In this document: piece by piece, positions 8,598 to 57,157 of the stretch
How positions within the stretch are numbered: position 1 is the stretch's first letter
Layout: the number at the start of each line of letters is the position of its first letter
Notes under the pieces: model-generated
Database searches by the model: none
What the model saw: the letters and a program-made list of their open reading frames with translations, nothing else
Told to the model about the DNA's origin: nothing
Program-made: the position numbers and the translations under genes
Assembly: GCF_900107375.1 (NCBI RefSeq)
Contig: NZ_FNPT01000003.1
Span: 124,001-188,000 of the forward strand
DNA length: 64,000 nt
Source: Lysobacter sp. yr284
GTDB lineage: Bacteria; Pseudomonadota; Gammaproteobacteria; Xanthomonadales; Xanthomonadaceae
Direction: 5' to 3'

Positions 8598-8964
8598 CGT
8601 CATTCCGGCGAAAGCCGGAATCCATTTTGACTTTGCTGTTGCTCCTGCCTTTAGCGCAGCAACGAGTGACGACAAGCCACCATCCAAAGCTTCCGTCCGC
8701 AAGCGGCCGGGTCACTTTCTTTGTCCAAAGCCACAAAGAAAGTAACCAAAGAAAAGGCATTGCTGTTTCGAATCAAGAGCCACTAGGTCCAGCACCGGAC
8801 GCGGGGCCGCGCCATAAGGGGCATCCTGCCCCATGGCGCGCGTGCGCATCCATGCGCACGCCCTTCGGGGCTGCGAGACGTGTGCTTCGCGTGGGGTTGC
8901 GTCCGGGCGAACGGCAATGGCAACGGCAACGGCAAAATGGATTCCGGCTTTCGCCGGAATGACG
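8598..8964 (+). repeat. Structured intergenic element, copy A
   Basis: A 367-bp noncoding element bounded by inverted copies of a hairpin (ATTCCGGC-GAAA-GCCGGAAT at the left, its reverse at the right, each joined to CCATTTT/AAAATGG). The core at 8691-8917 recurs inverted at about 15184-15408 (roughly 95% alike by eye) and, more diverged, at 15670-15900. Four internal hairpins are visible: 8714-8743, 8808-8840, 8841-8860 and 8860-8871, the last with a UUCG loop. Compensatory differences between copies (see findings) indicate that structure is conserved. A GGCAAC-type tandem tract precedes the right end. Confidence 0.8.
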
Positions 8965-51074: not shown

Positions 51075-52619
51075 TCAGCGCAGCAGCGGTTCGGGATCCA
51101 CGCGCTGGCCGTCGTGCAGGACTTCCATGTGCAGGTGCGGCCCGGTGGCCTGGCCGCTGGCGCCGGAGCTACCGATCGGCGCGCCGGCGGCGATGCGCTG
51201 GCCTTCGTGCACGTCGAAGTCCTGCAGATGCGCGTACAGCGTCTGCCAACCGTCGCCGTGGTCGAGCACCACCACCTTGCCGTAGCGCTCGCCTTCGGGA
51301 TAACGGTCGGTGGCGGCGACCACGAGCGCGGCGGCCGGCGCGTACACGCGGGTGCCGCGGCGCGCGGCGAAGTCGATGCCACGGTGCGGGCGGATGCGGA
51401 TGCCGCCGCTGACGCCGTAGCGGCTGGTGATGCGGGTATCGGCGAGTGGGACGGCGAGGGCGATGGGCGCGGGTGCCGCGTTCGCCGCGGCCTGCGGCGA
51501 CGCAAGGCGGCGCACGTCGGCGGCGGGCTTGGTCGAAGCCGTGCCGGTGTCCTCGTGGTTCGTGGGAGCGGCGACGGGCGCGGCGATCCGCGCCGGATCG
51601 CCGCCGCCGGCGGCCTGCGCCGCGGCCAACGCGGCGCTGCCGCCCAGCGCCAACGCCAGCAGCGCCAGGCGCGCGCCGCGGCGCAGGCGCGGCCGGTCGT
51701 CGCCGTGCAGCATGTGCTGCATGCGCAATTGGTGCTGGCCCGGGTCGCGGCGACGGGCGAACGCGCTGGCGCCGGCCGGCGCGGCGCGGCCGGCGGCCAG
51801 GCGCAGGGTGGCGAGATAGGCCTGCGCGCAGGGCCTGCGGCGGCCGGGATCGGCGCCGATCGCCGCGGCATCGCAGCGCAGTTCCGCGGCCAGTTGCACG
51901 CGTGCGGCCAGCATGCGCAGGAACGGGTTGAACCACAGCGCCGCCTGCGCGAGCCGCATCAGCGCGTCGCGTTCCGGGTCCAGGCGGCGCAGGTGCGCGG
52001 CTTCGTGGCGCAGCACCAGCGCGAGCTGCGCGTCGTCCAGGTGCGCGGCCAGCGCCTCGGGCACGACCACGCGGCGGCGCGGCCAGCCCACGGCGAAGGC
52101 GGTGGCGGCCTCGCGGCTCAACACCACCTGCACGCCGCGCGCGCGCAGCGCCTGCAGTTCGCGCCGGCTGTGCGCGCCGGGCAGGCGCTCGCCGGCGTCG
52201 CGCGCGGCGCGCAACAGCCCGCGCAGCGCGACGCCGCCGCGCAGCCAGCGCGCCAGGCTGCAGGCGACGCCGGCGAGGTAGAGCGCGAGCAAAGCGCCAG
52301 CCAGGTCCACGACCGGTTGCGTCGCGACGGCCTCGGCCGCGTGCGCCGGCGCGGCGTCGGCGGCGAACGCGTCCAGCCGCGGCAACGGCAGGCCGGACGG
52401 CAACGGCCACGCCGGTGCGGCGGCGCCGCTGGCGTGCCAGACCGATGCGGCGACGCTCGGCGCGAGCGCCAGCAGCCACAGCGCCAGCCAGTAGCCGAAC
52501 GCGGCGTGGGAAATGCGCAGGCGCCGGTGCGCGGCGCCGCCCACGAACCACGCCAGCGCGCCGGCGAGCACCTGCGCGCCGGCCTGCGCCAGCCAGAACG
52601 CGACGTCCGCCGCGCTCAT
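51075..52619 (-). CDS. M23/M56 fusion metallopeptidase (BlaR1-like)
   Basis: 514 aa. The N-terminal half is a membrane-embedded M56 (BlaR1-type) peptidase with several helices and a zinc site HEAAH near residue 206. After another helix (LALLALALGGSAALAAAQ, about 315-335) and a linker, the C-terminus is a periplasmic M23 endopeptidase domain with HRGIDF (about 411) and PHLHME (about 493). In BlaR1 this place holds a penicillin-binding sensor; here it is a wall hydrolase. It overlaps blaI by ATGA. Confidence 0.9.
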   Translation of the reverse strand: MSAADVAFWLAQAGAQVLAGALAWFVGGAAHRRLRISHAAFGYWLALWLLALAPSVAASVWHASGAAAPAWPLPSGLPLPRLDAFAADAAPAHAAEAVATQPVVDLAGALLALYLAGVACSLARWLRGGVALRGLLRAARDAGERLPGAHSRRELQALRARGVQVVLSREAATAFAVGWPRRRVVVPEALAAHLDDAQLALVLRHEAAHLRRLDPERDALMRLAQAALWFNPFLRMLAARVQLAAELRCDAAAIGADPGRRRPCAQAYLATLRLAAGRAAPAGASAFARRRDPGQHQLRMQHMLHGDDRPRLRRGARLALLALALGGSAALAAAQAAGGGDPARIAAPVAAPTNHEDTGTASTKPAADVRRLASPQAAANAAPAPIALAVPLADTRITSRYGVSGGIRIRPHRGIDFAARRGTRVYAPAAALVVAATDRYPEGERYGKVVVLDHGDGWQTLYAHLQDFDVHEGQRIAAGAPIGSSGASGQATGPHLHMEVLHDGQRVDPEPLLR

Positions 52620-52996
52620 CGCGGCCGCTCCGGGTCGGCGTCGCGCAGCATCGCTTCGAGTTGTTCGAGTTCGCCCTGGTCGAGCAGGCGGCTGTCGGCG
52701 AAGGCCTGCACCGGCAGCGGCCCGTCGATCTCCAGCACCCGCCGGGCGAAGTCGGCGCTGAGCGCGGCCAGGGTCGGCAGCTTGGCGACCGCGGCGCGGA
52801 ACACCATCAGGCCGTGGTGGTCGGCGCTGGCGACCAGGCCCTTCTCGAGCATGCGTTCGAGCGTCTTGCGGGTCGAGGAGTACGACCACTGCAGTTGCTC
52901 GCCGACCGCGTTGTGCAGTTCGCGCGCGCTCAGCGGCTGTTGCCGCCACAGGCATTTGAGCAGTTCCAGTTCGGCGTTGGACGGACGTGGCGGCAT
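52616..52996 (-). CDS. blaI: BlaI/MecI-family repressor
   Basis: 126 aa winged-helix repressor: SNAELELLKCLWRQQPLSAREL and SYSSTRKTLERMLEKGLVA (about residues 5-60) match BlaI/MecI/CopY DNA-binding domains, followed by a helical dimerisation domain. ATG 52996 gives the usual length; the frame continues upstream without support. In the known systems the M56 protease partner cleaves the repressor to relieve repression. Here that partner is the adjacent fusion gene. Confidence 0.92.
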   Translation of the reverse strand: MPPRPSNAELELLKCLWRQQPLSARELHNAVGEQLQWSYSSTRKTLERMLEKGLVASADHHGLMVFRAAVAKLPTLAALSADFARRVLEIDGPLPVQAFADSRLLDQGELEQLEAMLRDADPERPR

Positions 52997-53020
52997 GGCG
53001 GCAGATGGGTGTGGAGGTTG

Positions 53021-53045
53021 TGTCGCCAACATACGACACTTGTCG
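53021..53045. promoter_or_regulatory. BlaI-type operator upstream of blaI
   Basis: Three alternating boxes TGTCG (53021), CGACA (53034) and TGTCG (53041) lie 25-50 bp before the blaI start. The last two form a tight inverted repeat with a 2-bp centre. BlaI operators are built from TACA/TGTA-like arms, with CGACA variants, so this is a good autoregulatory site. Confidence 0.6.
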
Positions 53046-53257
53046 CATGCACTCAAGCGGCGCGGCGATGCCGCCAACGGCGGCATGCGGCCGGGACCTG
53101 CGGTGCGTTCGGTTCTCGATCCCGGCGCGGTGGCGCAAGACGCGGCGGTCCGTGCGGCGTGCGGGAGGTCAGCTCGTTCGGCACGACGGCGCCCAAGCGC
53201 GGCTGGTGCCTGCGTCGCAGGCCGGCGCGGCCGGCGAAGGGGCGCGGCAGCTCGGGG

Positions 53258-54052: not shown

Positions 54053-55234
54053 ATGTTGCCTCGCCCGTTCGCTTCCGCCCTGATCTGGGCCGCGTTGGTC
54101 CTCGCCGCCGCGCCCGCGCGCGCCGCACCGGTGGACACGCTCGACCTGGCGGTACCGCAGGTCCCGGCCGCGGTCGTGGTGGAAGGGCGCCAGCGCCTGC
54201 TGTACGAACTGCACCTGACCAATTTCGGCGCCGCGCCGCTGCGGCTGCAGGCGGTGAGCGTGCTCGACGCGGGCAGCGGCGCGGTGCTGGCGGGCTGGCG
54301 CGGCGAGGCGCTGGCCGCGCGCGGCCGCATCGTCGGCGCGCGCGACGCGGCGCTGGGCGATGCGCTGCAGCCCGGCCAGCGCGCCGTCGTGTTCCTGGAA
54401 CTGGACCTGCCGGCGCCGATGCCGAAGGCGCTGCGCCATCGGGTCGAGTTTTCCAGCGCCGCCGCCGCGCCAGGCCCGGCCGATACCGGCCGTGCAGAAG
54501 GCGCGCAGGTGGAAGGCGGCCAAGTGGAAGGCGGGCAGGTGGCGCCGCGGCCGGCGGCCGCGCTGCCGTTGGCGGCGCCGCTGCGCGGCGGGCCGTGGGC
54601 GGCGGTGTACGCGCCGCACTGGCCGCGCGGGCACCGGCGGGTGTTCTACGCCCTCGACGGCCGCGCGCGCCTGCCCGGCCGCTACGCCATCGACTTCGTC
54701 CGCGTCGACGCGCAAGGCCGCACCGCGCGCGGCGACGCCGACCTCGCCGCCAACGCGCTGGGCTACGGCGAGCCGGTGCTGGCGGTGGCCGATGCGGTGG
54801 TCGCCGCGGCGCGCGACGGCATCGGCGAGAGCGCGCGCGTGTCCGCGCATCCGCGCCACGATTTCGACCGGGCGCCCGGCAACTACGTGGCGCTGGCGCT
54901 CGCCGACGGCCGCTATGCGGTGTACGAACACCTGCGGCCCGGCAGCCTGAGCGTGCGTGCCGGCGAACGCGTGCGCCGCGGCCAGGTCATCGGCGAACTC
55001 GGCTTCACCGGCGACTCGACCGGGCCGCACCTGCATTTCCACGTCGCCGACGCGCCCGCGCCATTGGCCGGCGAAGGCGTGGGCTATGCCTTCGAGGCGT
55101 TCGGCCTGCTCGGGCATTACCCCGGCGCGGCGGGGCTCGGCGAGCGTCCGTGGCAGGCGCGCGCCGACGACGTCGCGGCGCAGCGCCGCAACGAGTTGCC
55201 CGAGTCCAACGCGGTGATCGAGTTCGCGCGCTGA
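54053..55234 (+). CDS. M23-family peptidase with altered first zinc ligand
   Basis: 393 aa. A signal peptide ends in ARA (about residue 24). After a beta-rich N-terminal domain, a Gly/Gln linker has a tandem (QVEGGQVEGGQV, about 153-164). The C-terminal M23 domain has GPHLHFHV for the HxH motif. The usual HxxxD appears as RYAID, so the first zinc ligand seems replaced by Arg. I recall related proteins with RFAIDW here, so this may be a family trait rather than damage. It faces the YcaO gene convergently. Confidence 0.82.
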   Translation: MLPRPFASALIWAALVLAAAPARAAPVDTLDLAVPQVPAAVVVEGRQRLLYELHLTNFGAAPLRLQAVSVLDAGSGAVLAGWRGEALAARGRIVGARDAALGDALQPGQRAVVFLELDLPAPMPKALRHRVEFSSAAAAPGPADTGRAEGAQVEGGQVEGGQVAPRPAAALPLAAPLRGGPWAAVYAPHWPRGHRRVFYALDGRARLPGRYAIDFVRVDAQGRTARGDADLAANALGYGEPVLAVADAVVAAARDGIGESARVSAHPRHDFDRAPGNYVALALADGRYAVYEHLRPGSLSVRAGERVRRGQVIGELGFTGDSTGPHLHFHVADAPAPLAGEGVGYAFEAFGLLGHYPGAAGLGERPWQARADDVAAQRRNELPESNAVIEFAR

Positions 55235-55414: not shown

Positions 55415-56695
55415 TCACGCCAGCGCCAACGACGCCTCGCAGTCCGGCGCCGCGGCGCTGCCCGGCACCGGCAGGCGCCCGGCCAGCAACTCGCGCCCGC
55501 GCTGGCCCGGCGCCATGACGATGCCGGAGCAGACCAGGAAGAACCGCTCCAGCGCCAGCGACACCACGTTGACCACGCAGAAACGTCCGGGTTCGTCGTG
55601 GTTGATCGCGTAGTGCAGGTCGATGCCGCGCGCGCGCAGGCGCGCGGTCAGCCGTTCCAGCAACGCGGCCGGCGGCAGCGGCGGCGGCGTCTGGAAGTCC
55701 CAGCGGCGGCGGCGCAGGCGCGCGCGGTCGAGCGCGAACACCGCGCAGTCGCGCAGCTTCGGATAATCCGACAAGGCGCCCAGCACCGCCTGCGAATAGC
55801 CGGCGAGCCGCGGCTGCAGGCGCGGCAGTTCCAGCGCCTGCACCAGTTCGGTGATCGCGCGCATGGCCGCGTGTTCGGGGTACAGCGAGGCGCCGTAGCC
55901 GCAGGGATGGATCGACTCGCCGTCGGGCAGGTCGGTCGCGGTGGCGATGAAGCAGGGCACGCCGAGGTCGCTGGTGGCGTCGATCAGGGCGATCCGGCGC
56001 TGCAGCTGCGCCTCGGCCTCGCCCAGGCGCCGGGCCAGCGGCGCCGGCAGTTCGTCCGGCGCCAGCAGGTAGCCGTGGGCGGCCGGATCGCCGAGGAAAT
56101 GCGCGGTCAGGAACAGCGACCAGGCGTCGCGCTCGATCAGTTCGCCGATCGCGTGCACCGCGGCCTCGGCCAGGCTGCTGCCGATCGCGGTGCCGTTGTT
56201 GGAGCCGAAGCGCAGGGCGCTGGCATAGTCGAAATCGTCCTGCGGCGGACGCCAGTCGAGATAGGTGGGGTAGGACAGGAACAGCGGCAAGGTCGCATCC
56301 GGTTCGCCCGCGGCGAAGGCGCGGTAGCGGCGGCAGGCGAGCCGGCGCTCGGGCTGCTGGGCGAAGGCGGCGCGGAACGGCAGCGCCGCCAGCAGCGGAT
56401 CGGCCAGGCAGTCGGCGCCGCTGCGCAGGCTCAGCACCGCGTGCGCGGGCGCCTTGCCGGTGAACAGGTGTTCGACCGCTTCGAACAGCGCGCCGACCCG
56501 CGCCGGGTCCGCCTCGCCCTTGCCGAAGCCGTTGCCGAGCAGGCGCCCGTCGGCCTGGTCGTAGAGCGAGCAGATCGTCGCCGCGAACGGCGCGCCGACG
56601 CGCTGCACGTCCGCGCGCCAGCCTTGCGCGTCGAGGAAGTCGCGCAGCGCGCGCTCGGCCTCATCGAGGCTGCGTTCTCGTTCCAGGGGAATCAT
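55415..56695 (-). CDS. YcaO-family cyclodehydratase-like enzyme
   Basis: 426 aa. YcaO enzymes use ATP to activate peptide-backbone amides, giving azolines, thioamides or amidines. The motifs are present in order: GKGEADPARVGALFEAVEHL (58-77), SNNGTAIGSSLAEAAVHAIG followed by ELIERD (165-190) and ITELVQ (about 281-286), supplying the Glu/Gln residues for Mg-ATP. There is no PxPxP tail as in azoline-forming enzymes and no TfuA, dehydrogenase or E1-like partner nearby. A 46-aa peptide gene lies 122 bp upstream. No signal peptide. Start ATG 56695; earlier frame residues are unsupported. Confidence 0.88.
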   Translation of the reverse strand: MIPLERERSLDEAERALRDFLDAQGWRADVQRVGAPFAATICSLYDQADGRLLGNGFGKGEADPARVGALFEAVEHLFTGKAPAHAVLSLRSGADCLADPLLAALPFRAAFAQQPERRLACRRYRAFAAGEPDATLPLFLSYPTYLDWRPPQDDFDYASALRFGSNNGTAIGSSLAEAAVHAIGELIERDAWSLFLTAHFLGDPAAHGYLLAPDELPAPLARRLGEAEAQLQRRIALIDATSDLGVPCFIATATDLPDGESIHPCGYGASLYPEHAAMRAITELVQALELPRLQPRLAGYSQAVLGALSDYPKLRDCAVFALDRARLRRRRWDFQTPPPLPPAALLERLTARLRARGIDLHYAINHDEPGRFCVVNVVSLALERFFLVCSGIVMAPGQRGRELLAGRLPVPGSAAAPDCEASLALA

Positions 56696-56751
56696 CGGTT
56701 GCGCTCTCCCTCGCGCTGGATTCGCCGCGCGCCCGGCCCGCGGCGGCGGTG

Positions 56752-56785
56752 CGACGGCACGCAGGCGCGCCTGCATGCCGTCGCC
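56752..56785 (-). other. Intercistronic hairpin between peptide and YcaO genes
   Basis: GCGACGGCA pairs with TGCCGTCGC (9 bp), then one mismatch, then GCAGGCG with CGCCTGC (7 bp) at the tip. The 122-bp gap has no U tract after it. Such hairpins often keep a precursor-peptide mRNA abundant relative to its enzyme gene. Confidence 0.65.
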
Positions 56786-56817
56786 GCGCCGGCCTGCGCC
56801 GGTCGCGCTGTTGCGGC

Positions 56818-56958
56818 TTACTTGGCGTGCGCTTCCAGGAAATCCAGTTCGTCGGCGGTGATTTCCGGCTGGACGTCGTGGGCTTCCAGGGTCGAGGTCG
56901 GCTCGATCAGACGCACGCCGCTCTTCACGATCAGCGGCATATCGATGGTCTTCTTCAT
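56818..56958 (-). CDS. 46-aa peptide, candidate YcaO substrate
   Basis: The peptide begins MKKTIDMPLIVKSG and ends EITADELDFLEAHAK. A strong ribosome site (GGAGGGAG) lies about 7 nt before ATG 56958, and it is read on the same strand, 122 bp before the YcaO gene. The N-terminal half is basic and hydrophobic, the C-terminal half acidic and helical. It has no Cys and few Ser/Thr (Thr4, Ser13, Thr21, Ser22, Thr23, Thr34), so heterocycles would have to form at TST or the chemistry would be thioamide or amidine. It could instead be a leader-like or scaffold peptide. No family recognised. Confidence 0.6.
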   Translation of the reverse strand: MKKTIDMPLIVKSGVRLIEPTSTLEAHDVQPEITADELDFLEAHAK

Positions 56959-57157
56959 GGTGTGCTCCCTCCAATGGTCGATGGGTTGTTCCTTCGTGCC
57001 TCAGCGCAGCGGACCGTTGCGGGCCTGCGCCCTCCCGGCGGCTGCCGCTCCTCTATACCAAAGCCGCCCGCGGCCTGCGGGGCGGACCGCGGGATTTGTG
57101 ATGCAAGGGCGCAGTGCGTGATCGGCGCGCGCATTCAGCTGCGCGCGGGATGTGATG

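Follow-up and report, generated by a model that had tools for sequence, protein, structure and literature searches.

A small gene encoding a 46-aa peptide and the ycaO gene that follows it form a real two-gene family that is concentrated in one lineage, the genus Lysobacter, and we put the probability that the two genes constitute a minimal locus for a RiPP (modified ribosomal peptide) at roughly 70%. In such a locus, the small gene would encode the substrate of the YcaO enzyme, the C-terminal helix of the peptide would be recognized, and its variable part would be modified. The pair lies in a 64,000-nucleotide stretch of the Lysobacter sp. yr284 genome, the whole of which is called the window here.

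Organization of the locus

Both genes are on the minus strand. The peptide gene, which encodes a putative RiPP precursor of type I, occupies positions 56818..56958, begins with ATG, and is supported by its open reading frame and its conservation; its ribosome site, GGAGGGAG, is found at 56965..56972 (minus). The gene ends in the codons for the conserved C-terminal residues T34..E37...L41...A45-K46 and the stop (56818..56859, minus), as defined by alignment and by an AlphaFold helix at residues 35-44. A gap of 122 bp, which holds a 15-bp hairpin seen in folding analysis (56751..56784, minus) and a ribosome-site-like AGGGAGAG (56704..56711, minus), separates the peptide gene from the intact ycaO frame (55415..56695, minus), whose 426-aa product has a PF02624 match and a modeled single-domain fold. 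The original prediction of a short frame with a ribosome site 122 bp ahead of a YcaO gene was therefore borne out, since the frame is a real gene and ycaO is intact. Purine-rich, ribosome-site-like stretches also precede other peptides of the family when these are inspected by eye. Farther 5' of the peptide gene is a tentative -10-like TATAGAG (57051..57057, minus), likewise noted by eye and kept in the four type I loci; a consensus scan gave no sigma-70 site.

A CorA-like transporter gene lies upstream of the pair on the same strand. An M23 peptidase gene (54053-55234, plus) is convergent with ycaO, with 181 bp between its end and the YcaO stop, which contradicts the earlier statement that no protease gene is nearby. 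Elsewhere in the window, an M56 peptidase domain (BlaR1-type) and an M23 peptidase domain are joined in one frame (51075-53138, minus), and this frame overlaps another, at 52616-53086, whose product has a BlaI-type penicillinase-repressor domain.

Conservation and distribution of the pair

The window peptide is encoded in 4 of the 60 genomes searched, its own included, and all four belong to the genus of the window; identity to the window peptide is 100, 87, and 89% in the remaining three. To follow the pair beyond these close copies, we used the enzyme. A YcaO search of 20 genus genomes, among them Lysobacter enzymogenes ATCC 29487, L. antibioticus 13-6, and Lysobacter sp. Root690 (G002, G017, and G003), gave 25 matches in 13 genomes. 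Those in two genomes, G010 and G012, were set aside as weak matches to other YcaOs, which leaves one family of 23 genes in 11 of the 20 genomes, that of the window included, with the other members 48-91% identical to the window YcaO. A peptide of 45-59 aa with the common C terminus T..E...L...AK-stop is encoded 70-161 bp upstream of every one of the 23 genes. Upstream short frames were listed both unfiltered and with a filter for an Ala-Lys end, the latter being circular as regards the Ala-Lys ending itself.

The same result was obtained starting from the peptide. Searching the 20 genus genomes with a profile made from 21 distinct peptide sequences gave 24 strong matches (E value of 1.4e-11 or better), all of them confined to the 11 genomes with the YcaO family. 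Of these, 23 stand ahead of the YcaO genes of the family, one at each, and the remaining match is a tandem extra copy at one of them, in L. antibioticus 13-6, where two different family peptides stand before a single YcaO (L033:8284-8421 and 8639-8776). Three weak matches (E values of 0.012-0.0125) fall inside 865-aa frames in G007, G009, and G019. The Pfam YcaO model, run across the genus, returned 27 genes, of which 23 are the family members; the other four belong to G010 and G012, two genomes that have no pair. Each YcaO found in the 11 genomes is therefore paired, and no strong peptide lies away from a YcaO. Retention of the short frame in relatives that keep the YcaO, on which the original prediction had staked itself, was thus seen in 23 of 23 cases.

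Genomes carry one to three divergent pairs, and that of the window has a second one at L049. Constraint on the peptide frame was estimated from 26 within-group pairs of peptides; in all 25 of these with synonymous changes, pN/pS was below 1 (range, 0.00-0.77, from small numbers of changes per pair), with the lowest values in the 58-59-aa types (0.08-0.30), a pattern of amino-acid constraint along the frame. Peptide type also tracks the enzyme, as types I (the window), IIa, IIb, and III each fall on one YcaO clade in a quick tree, in which the branch joining IIa and III is weak (SH-aLRT of 79) and long branches lead to the distant sequences from Pantoea, Streptomyces, and Nonomuraea. The earlier claim that this lineage has a minimal RiPP system is partly supported by these results: as a conserved gene pair (23/23) the system is well supported, while modification of the peptide is something that we infer.

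Outside the genus, the family thins out quickly. At an E value of 1e-30, at least 12 of 395 family genomes have a YcaO match, 11 of them in the genus and 1 among the 375 others. No YcaO match was obtained in 368 other genomes of the class at 1e-45 or in 397 other genomes of the phylum at 1e-25, although the family, class, and phylum searches scored at most four first-look candidates per genome and may have missed relatives. A scan of contigs with narrow patterns found six loci, all from Lysobacter. One sister genus has four YcaO matches at 1e-25, in 3 of its 91 genomes, and a 30-aa frame is present upstream of three of them; for the fourth, a distant and partial match (L106), the listed upstream frames include nothing similar. 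The three 30-aa peptides match the Lysobacter profile weakly (1.1-1.6 bits), and 3, 1, and 4 of 200 shuffles score as high as they do, compared with 1 for the Nonomuraea small frame, 7 for that of Pantoea, and 175 for that of Streptomyces. The likeness that is seen by eye in small frames before distant YcaOs is accordingly unsupported for Streptomyces and weak for the others.

Two of these distant loci are on plasmids. In Streptomyces (L059:5608-8797), a 53-aa frame, a YcaO gene, and a SagB-type dehydrogenase gene stand in a row, and the peptide has no match to the Lysobacter profile. In Pantoea (L060:5808-8024), a 43-aa frame is followed by a distant YcaO gene and a methyltransferase gene. 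A match on an Acinetobacter plasmid has the same query range and identity as the Pantoea plasmid.

Features of the peptide

Conservation within the peptide is concentrated at its end. Among 22 distinct peptides, T, E, L, A, and K are invariant at 5 of the last 13 positions, and the only invariant position outside these 13 residues is Met1. AlphaFold models residues 35-44 of the window peptide as a helix, with a pLDDT of 83 and 81 for the block, and leaves the remainder unstructured at 60-68. The middle of the peptide is strongly variable across the family. We consider it likely that the C-terminal helix is the part recognized by the enzyme and that the variable remainder is the part that is modified.

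Cys is absent from all 24 peptides, each of which has 1-7 Ser and 1-6 Thr. The window peptide has 2 Ser and 4 Thr, and so agrees with its first description as lacking Cys and having few Ser/Thr. The invariant Thr comes immediately before the helix and, judged by eye, is replaced by Asn in the 30-aa counterparts from the sister genus; because of both, it fits a helix cap and not a modification site. Pfam and NCBIfam returned nothing convincing for the peptides, and PADLOC had no match for either window gene at an E value of 0.01.

The YcaO enzyme

YcaO proteins are enzymes that alter the backbones of peptides. The window enzyme belongs to the YcaO superfamily by its PF02624 match (E value of 3.8e-37), its fold, and its conserved glutamates and ExxQ. 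A structure model made from 26 sequences (pLDDT of 86, pTM of 0.88) gave no sign of an added domain in its secondary structure and matched the methanogen MJ1094 fold in Foldseek (E value of 8.5e-16; TM of 0.61-0.67). Over most of its length, the model matches methanogen YcaOs, LynD, MusD, TruD, the 4q85 YcaO, and McbD, with TM scores of about 0.5-0.67 and rmsd values of 5-10; the chains of 4q85, which we take to be the E. coli YcaO, rank 24th in the list (E value of 2.6e-12). The best solved relatives align by sequence around profile positions 163-293 only.

Across 29 proteins, the Nonomuraea, Streptomyces, and Pantoea relatives among them, residues E72, E75, E177, E185, E188, E283, and Q286 do not vary, and E177, E185, E188, E283, and Q286 are identical in the aligned stretch of MJ1094, TruD, and LynD. 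These glutamates and the ExxQ presumably bind ATP and magnesium. None of the 23 family YcaOs has a C-terminal PxPxP, although four have the motif internally at 335-337. Their pI ranges from 5.1 to 5.9, versus 4.4 for the E. coli YcaO.

The intercistronic hairpin

A G+C-rich hairpin 3' of the peptide stop is found in all 23 spacers. The best 40-nt energies in the 70 bases past the stop average -30.3, compared with -16.4 (standard deviation, 4.4) in control windows elsewhere in the loci, and of the 60 controls at each locus at most one is as low as the spacer hairpin. Unbroken stems of at least 9 pairs, with G-U pairs allowed, occur in 19 of the 23 spacers and in 7.5% of controls; the other four spacers have unbroken stems of 6-7 pairs, a length common in controls, but their 40-nt energies are still low. 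When whole spacers were compared with dinucleotide shuffles, only 9 of the 23 folding energies fell to a z score of -2 or below, so base composition accounts for part of the hairpin signal.

Across the four type I loci, the stem is preserved, with two double changes and, in one locus, two broken pairs. Double changes in the type IIIb stem were left out because its arms were lined up from the loop and the count depends on the register. In four type IIa loci, five or six consecutive T come after the hairpin, as in a terminator. Because coding DNA made up most of the controls and terminator hairpins commonly follow genes, these data establish an element resembling a transcript end, whatever its role.

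Neighborhoods, partners, and regulation

Neighborhoods of about 18-19 kb around each of the 23 loci were clustered with a crude gene caller. The only cluster common to all of them is YcaO, and every other cluster has at most six members. Among these crude gene calls, the neighborhoods have no protease, exporter, or immunity gene in common next to the pair; an M23 peptidase cluster appears in 3 of 23 of them, that of the window included.

A TfuA gene was considered in the original prediction as a possible supplier of thioamide chemistry from elsewhere, but none was found in the genome of the window or in the 10 other genomes that carry the pair. Within the genus, TfuA occurs only in G010 and G012, at most 1 kb from another YcaO. 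Each of these genomes has two further YcaO genes about 8 kb apart (L016 and L017), with one TfuA beside the first, and these YcaO-TfuA loci are likely to be ordinary thioamide RiPP clusters. SagB-type dehydrogenases are present in all 20 genus genomes, which makes a dehydrogenase acting in trans uninformative.

At the type IIIb loci (L045, L049, L050, and L051), a palindrome TGTGA-N6-TCACT is located 146-147 bases before the peptide start. We take it to be a site of the CRP/Clp type. Its pattern, TGTGAN6TCAC[AT], occurs four times in the 434,022 bases of the 23 loci, each time at type IIIb, and none was found within 250 bases of other peptides with one mismatch or fewer. Type IIIb may thus be under Clp-type control, to judge by this motif.

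Proposed mechanism and chemistry

A precursor and its modifying enzyme are the simplest account of the gene pair, its conservation, the constraint on the peptide, the hairpins, and the absence of TfuA, and from these observations we infer peptide modification, the location of the core, a chemistry, and a biological role. The small gene would yield a precursor peptide that is the substrate of YcaO, which would recognize the capped C-terminal helix T-x-x-E-x-x-x-L-x-x-x-A-K-stop. The modified residues would lie in the variable N-terminal and middle part, and with recognition at the C-terminal helix the polarity would be core first and follower last. The enzyme would act alone, with ATP, on a backbone amide, while the hairpin past the peptide stop probably lets the peptide exceed the enzyme. 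An invariant Lys at the C terminus of a follower that is removed argues against this account, which by itself does not explain the invariance. Also against it are the lack of a common protease, exporter, or immunity gene in the crude gene calls around the pairs and the weak profile matches of peptides ahead of more distant YcaO genes.

The peptides narrow the chemistry. With no Cys in any of the 24, Cys-based azoles are excluded, and no conserved Ser/Thr azole site was seen in the peptide alignment. The azoline suggested earlier at Thr-Ser-Thr is not supported, because this motif reads Leu-Ser-Thr in one of the four window-type peptides and is missing from the other types. Classical azole formation and TfuA-dependent thioamidation are disfavored, and amidines, thioamides with another source of sulfur, or something else would be left. 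Since there is no Cys and the only conserved residue among Ser and Thr is the helix-cap Thr, the nucleophile is likely to be an amine of the peptide itself (giving an amidine) or to come from outside the peptide, for instance as sulfide, and not to be a side chain of Cys, Ser, or Thr. A bolder version of the proposal, which we hold only tentatively and think somewhat doubtful, is that the pairs represent a distinct two-gene RiPP class, in which a partner-free YcaO directly recognizes a C-terminal helix follower and changes the backbone at residues other than Cys, Ser, and Thr, with up to three divergent pairs per genome. Such changes could include a macroamidine closed through Lys or the amine at the N terminus, or a thioamide whose sulfur comes from sulfide in the cell.

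Alternative explanations

The best rival to the precursor reading is a cis-acting leader peptide, or attenuator, owing to C-terminal conservation that runs up to the stop codon and is followed by a hairpin, an arrangement that also fits an attenuating leader. Ribosome stalling at the conserved C terminus would govern whether the hairpin is read through into ycaO, with some other substrate for the enzyme. The clustering of the invariant residues in the last 13 positions, the hairpin past the stop at all 23 loci, and the run of five or six T in four of them would be expected of such a device, but pN/pS is below 1 across the whole peptide frame, and at the tandem locus the first peptide is 438 bp from ycaO, where stalling could not act as it does elsewhere. 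Peptides of 45-59 aa are long compared with known attenuators. In the small frames of Nonomuraea, Streptomyces, and Pantoea, moreover, a similar-looking motif (seen by eye, with weak or unsupportive profile scores) is not C-terminal. We regard an attenuator as unlikely.

A helper subunit and a scaffold are both less likely than an attenuator. As a small regulatory or structural subunit, the peptide would assist a YcaO that modifies another protein, much as the E. coli YcaO acts on uL16. That a pseudomonadotan YcaO acts on a ribosomal protein, as described in passages of PMC13063428, and that the C-terminal helix is conserved while the remainder varies are both consistent with this. The same passages report that no short peptide gene lies near the E. 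coli YcaO, however, and a family that numbers one to three divergent copies in each genome, includes a tandem peptide, and is confined to 11 of the 20 genomes is unlike a housekeeping modification. The strongly variable middle is also what is seen in RiPP cores, and we consider a subunit improbable.

The conserved C-terminal end could instead serve as the growth point of a scaffold, on which a small molecule would be assembled before its release. No other gene is common to the neighborhoods, and the first reported direct action of a YcaO on a C-terminal residue needed prior decarboxylation by other enzymes, according to the parts of PMC12338566 consulted, so a scaffold seems very improbable. 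Many other open frames surround the 46-aa frame in the window, but the possibility that it arose merely by chance in G+C-rich DNA is ruled out by conservation at 23 of 23 loci, pN/pS below 1, and the co-occurrence of peptide and YcaO in the same 11 genomes.

Significance

If the precursor reading is true, the pair would be among the smallest YcaO systems, with a defined substrate, a single enzyme, and 23 natural pairs, which would open the substrate code and chemistry of a partner-free YcaO to simple two-gene coexpression. It proposes a substrate for each YcaO found in the 11 genomes, which belong to a genus noted for its antimicrobials, and points to an uncharacterized and very compact route to a modified peptide. 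The small gene is easily missed, which suggests that more such peptides may sit unannotated.

Comparison with known YcaO systems

No description of the Lysobacter pair appeared among the matches listed from titles and abstract starts of open-license PubMed Central articles. In passages of PMC10745450, a YcaO-like gene of L. gummosus 10.1.1 is upregulated 2.5-fold on RM versus 5/5 medium and has three orthologues in L. capsici; these passages mention no peptide alongside it, and the gene may belong to the present family.

LAP/TOMM systems combine a core rich in Cys, Ser, and Thr with a C-terminal PxPxP in the YcaO, and the Lysobacter pair has neither. YcaO-TfuA thioamitide loci resemble it in coupling a YcaO to a precursor peptide but differ in the TfuA partner, which is found in 0 of 11 genomes here.

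Bottromycin precursors have the core first and the follower last, the polarity that we propose. The bottromycin cluster has two YcaOs and turns Cys into thiazoline, whereas there is one YcaO per locus and no Cys here. Its macroamidine and thiazoline YcaOs act without a partner protein, as would the Lysobacter enzyme (passages of PMC8442711).

The nearest solved relative of the Lysobacter YcaO, by both sequence and fold, is the methanogen MJ1094, and both are single-domain proteins. We know of no paired peptide gene for the methanogen YcaO. MJ1094 and its relatives act on a glycine of a protein (McrA thioamidation), as stated in part of PMC5589413, unlike the peptide pair described here. The E. 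coli YcaO, which thioamidates uL16, is like the present enzyme in coming from the Pseudomonadota and working without TfuA, but differs in that no short peptide gene is reported nearby in the passages of PMC13063428.

Streptamidine-type loci, as presented in sections of PMC8442711, are alike in that a standalone YcaO is near a short peptide without a region rich in Ser, Thr, or Cys, peptide type tracks YcaO clade, and most of the peptides are unannotated. They differ in their hosts, which are Actinobacteria and six Firmicutes, and may differ in their partners. According to the same sections, streptamidine production requires genes for AmiB (RRE/E1-like), a hydrolase, a dehydrogenase, and an iron transporter; beside the Lysobacter pair, no non-YcaO cluster exceeds six members over the 23 loci (crude calls), the streptamidine companions being amiB, amiC, amiE, amiF, and amiT. 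The peptides differ as well. AmiD has a Pro-rich C terminus unlike that of the Lysobacter peptides, and ALV, common to both streptamidine peptide motifs, is found in 0 of 24 Lysobacter peptides; in the sections consulted, 22 of 237 streptamidine-type peptides lack both motifs (PMC8442711). Precedents for the proposed chemistry are provided by streptamidine for amidine formation (PMC8442711, in part) and by the E. coli YcaO for thioamidation without TfuA (PMC13063428, in part). Set against these systems, the Lysobacter pair most probably adds a new, minimal variant to the YcaO RiPP loci, with a putative function and chemistry.
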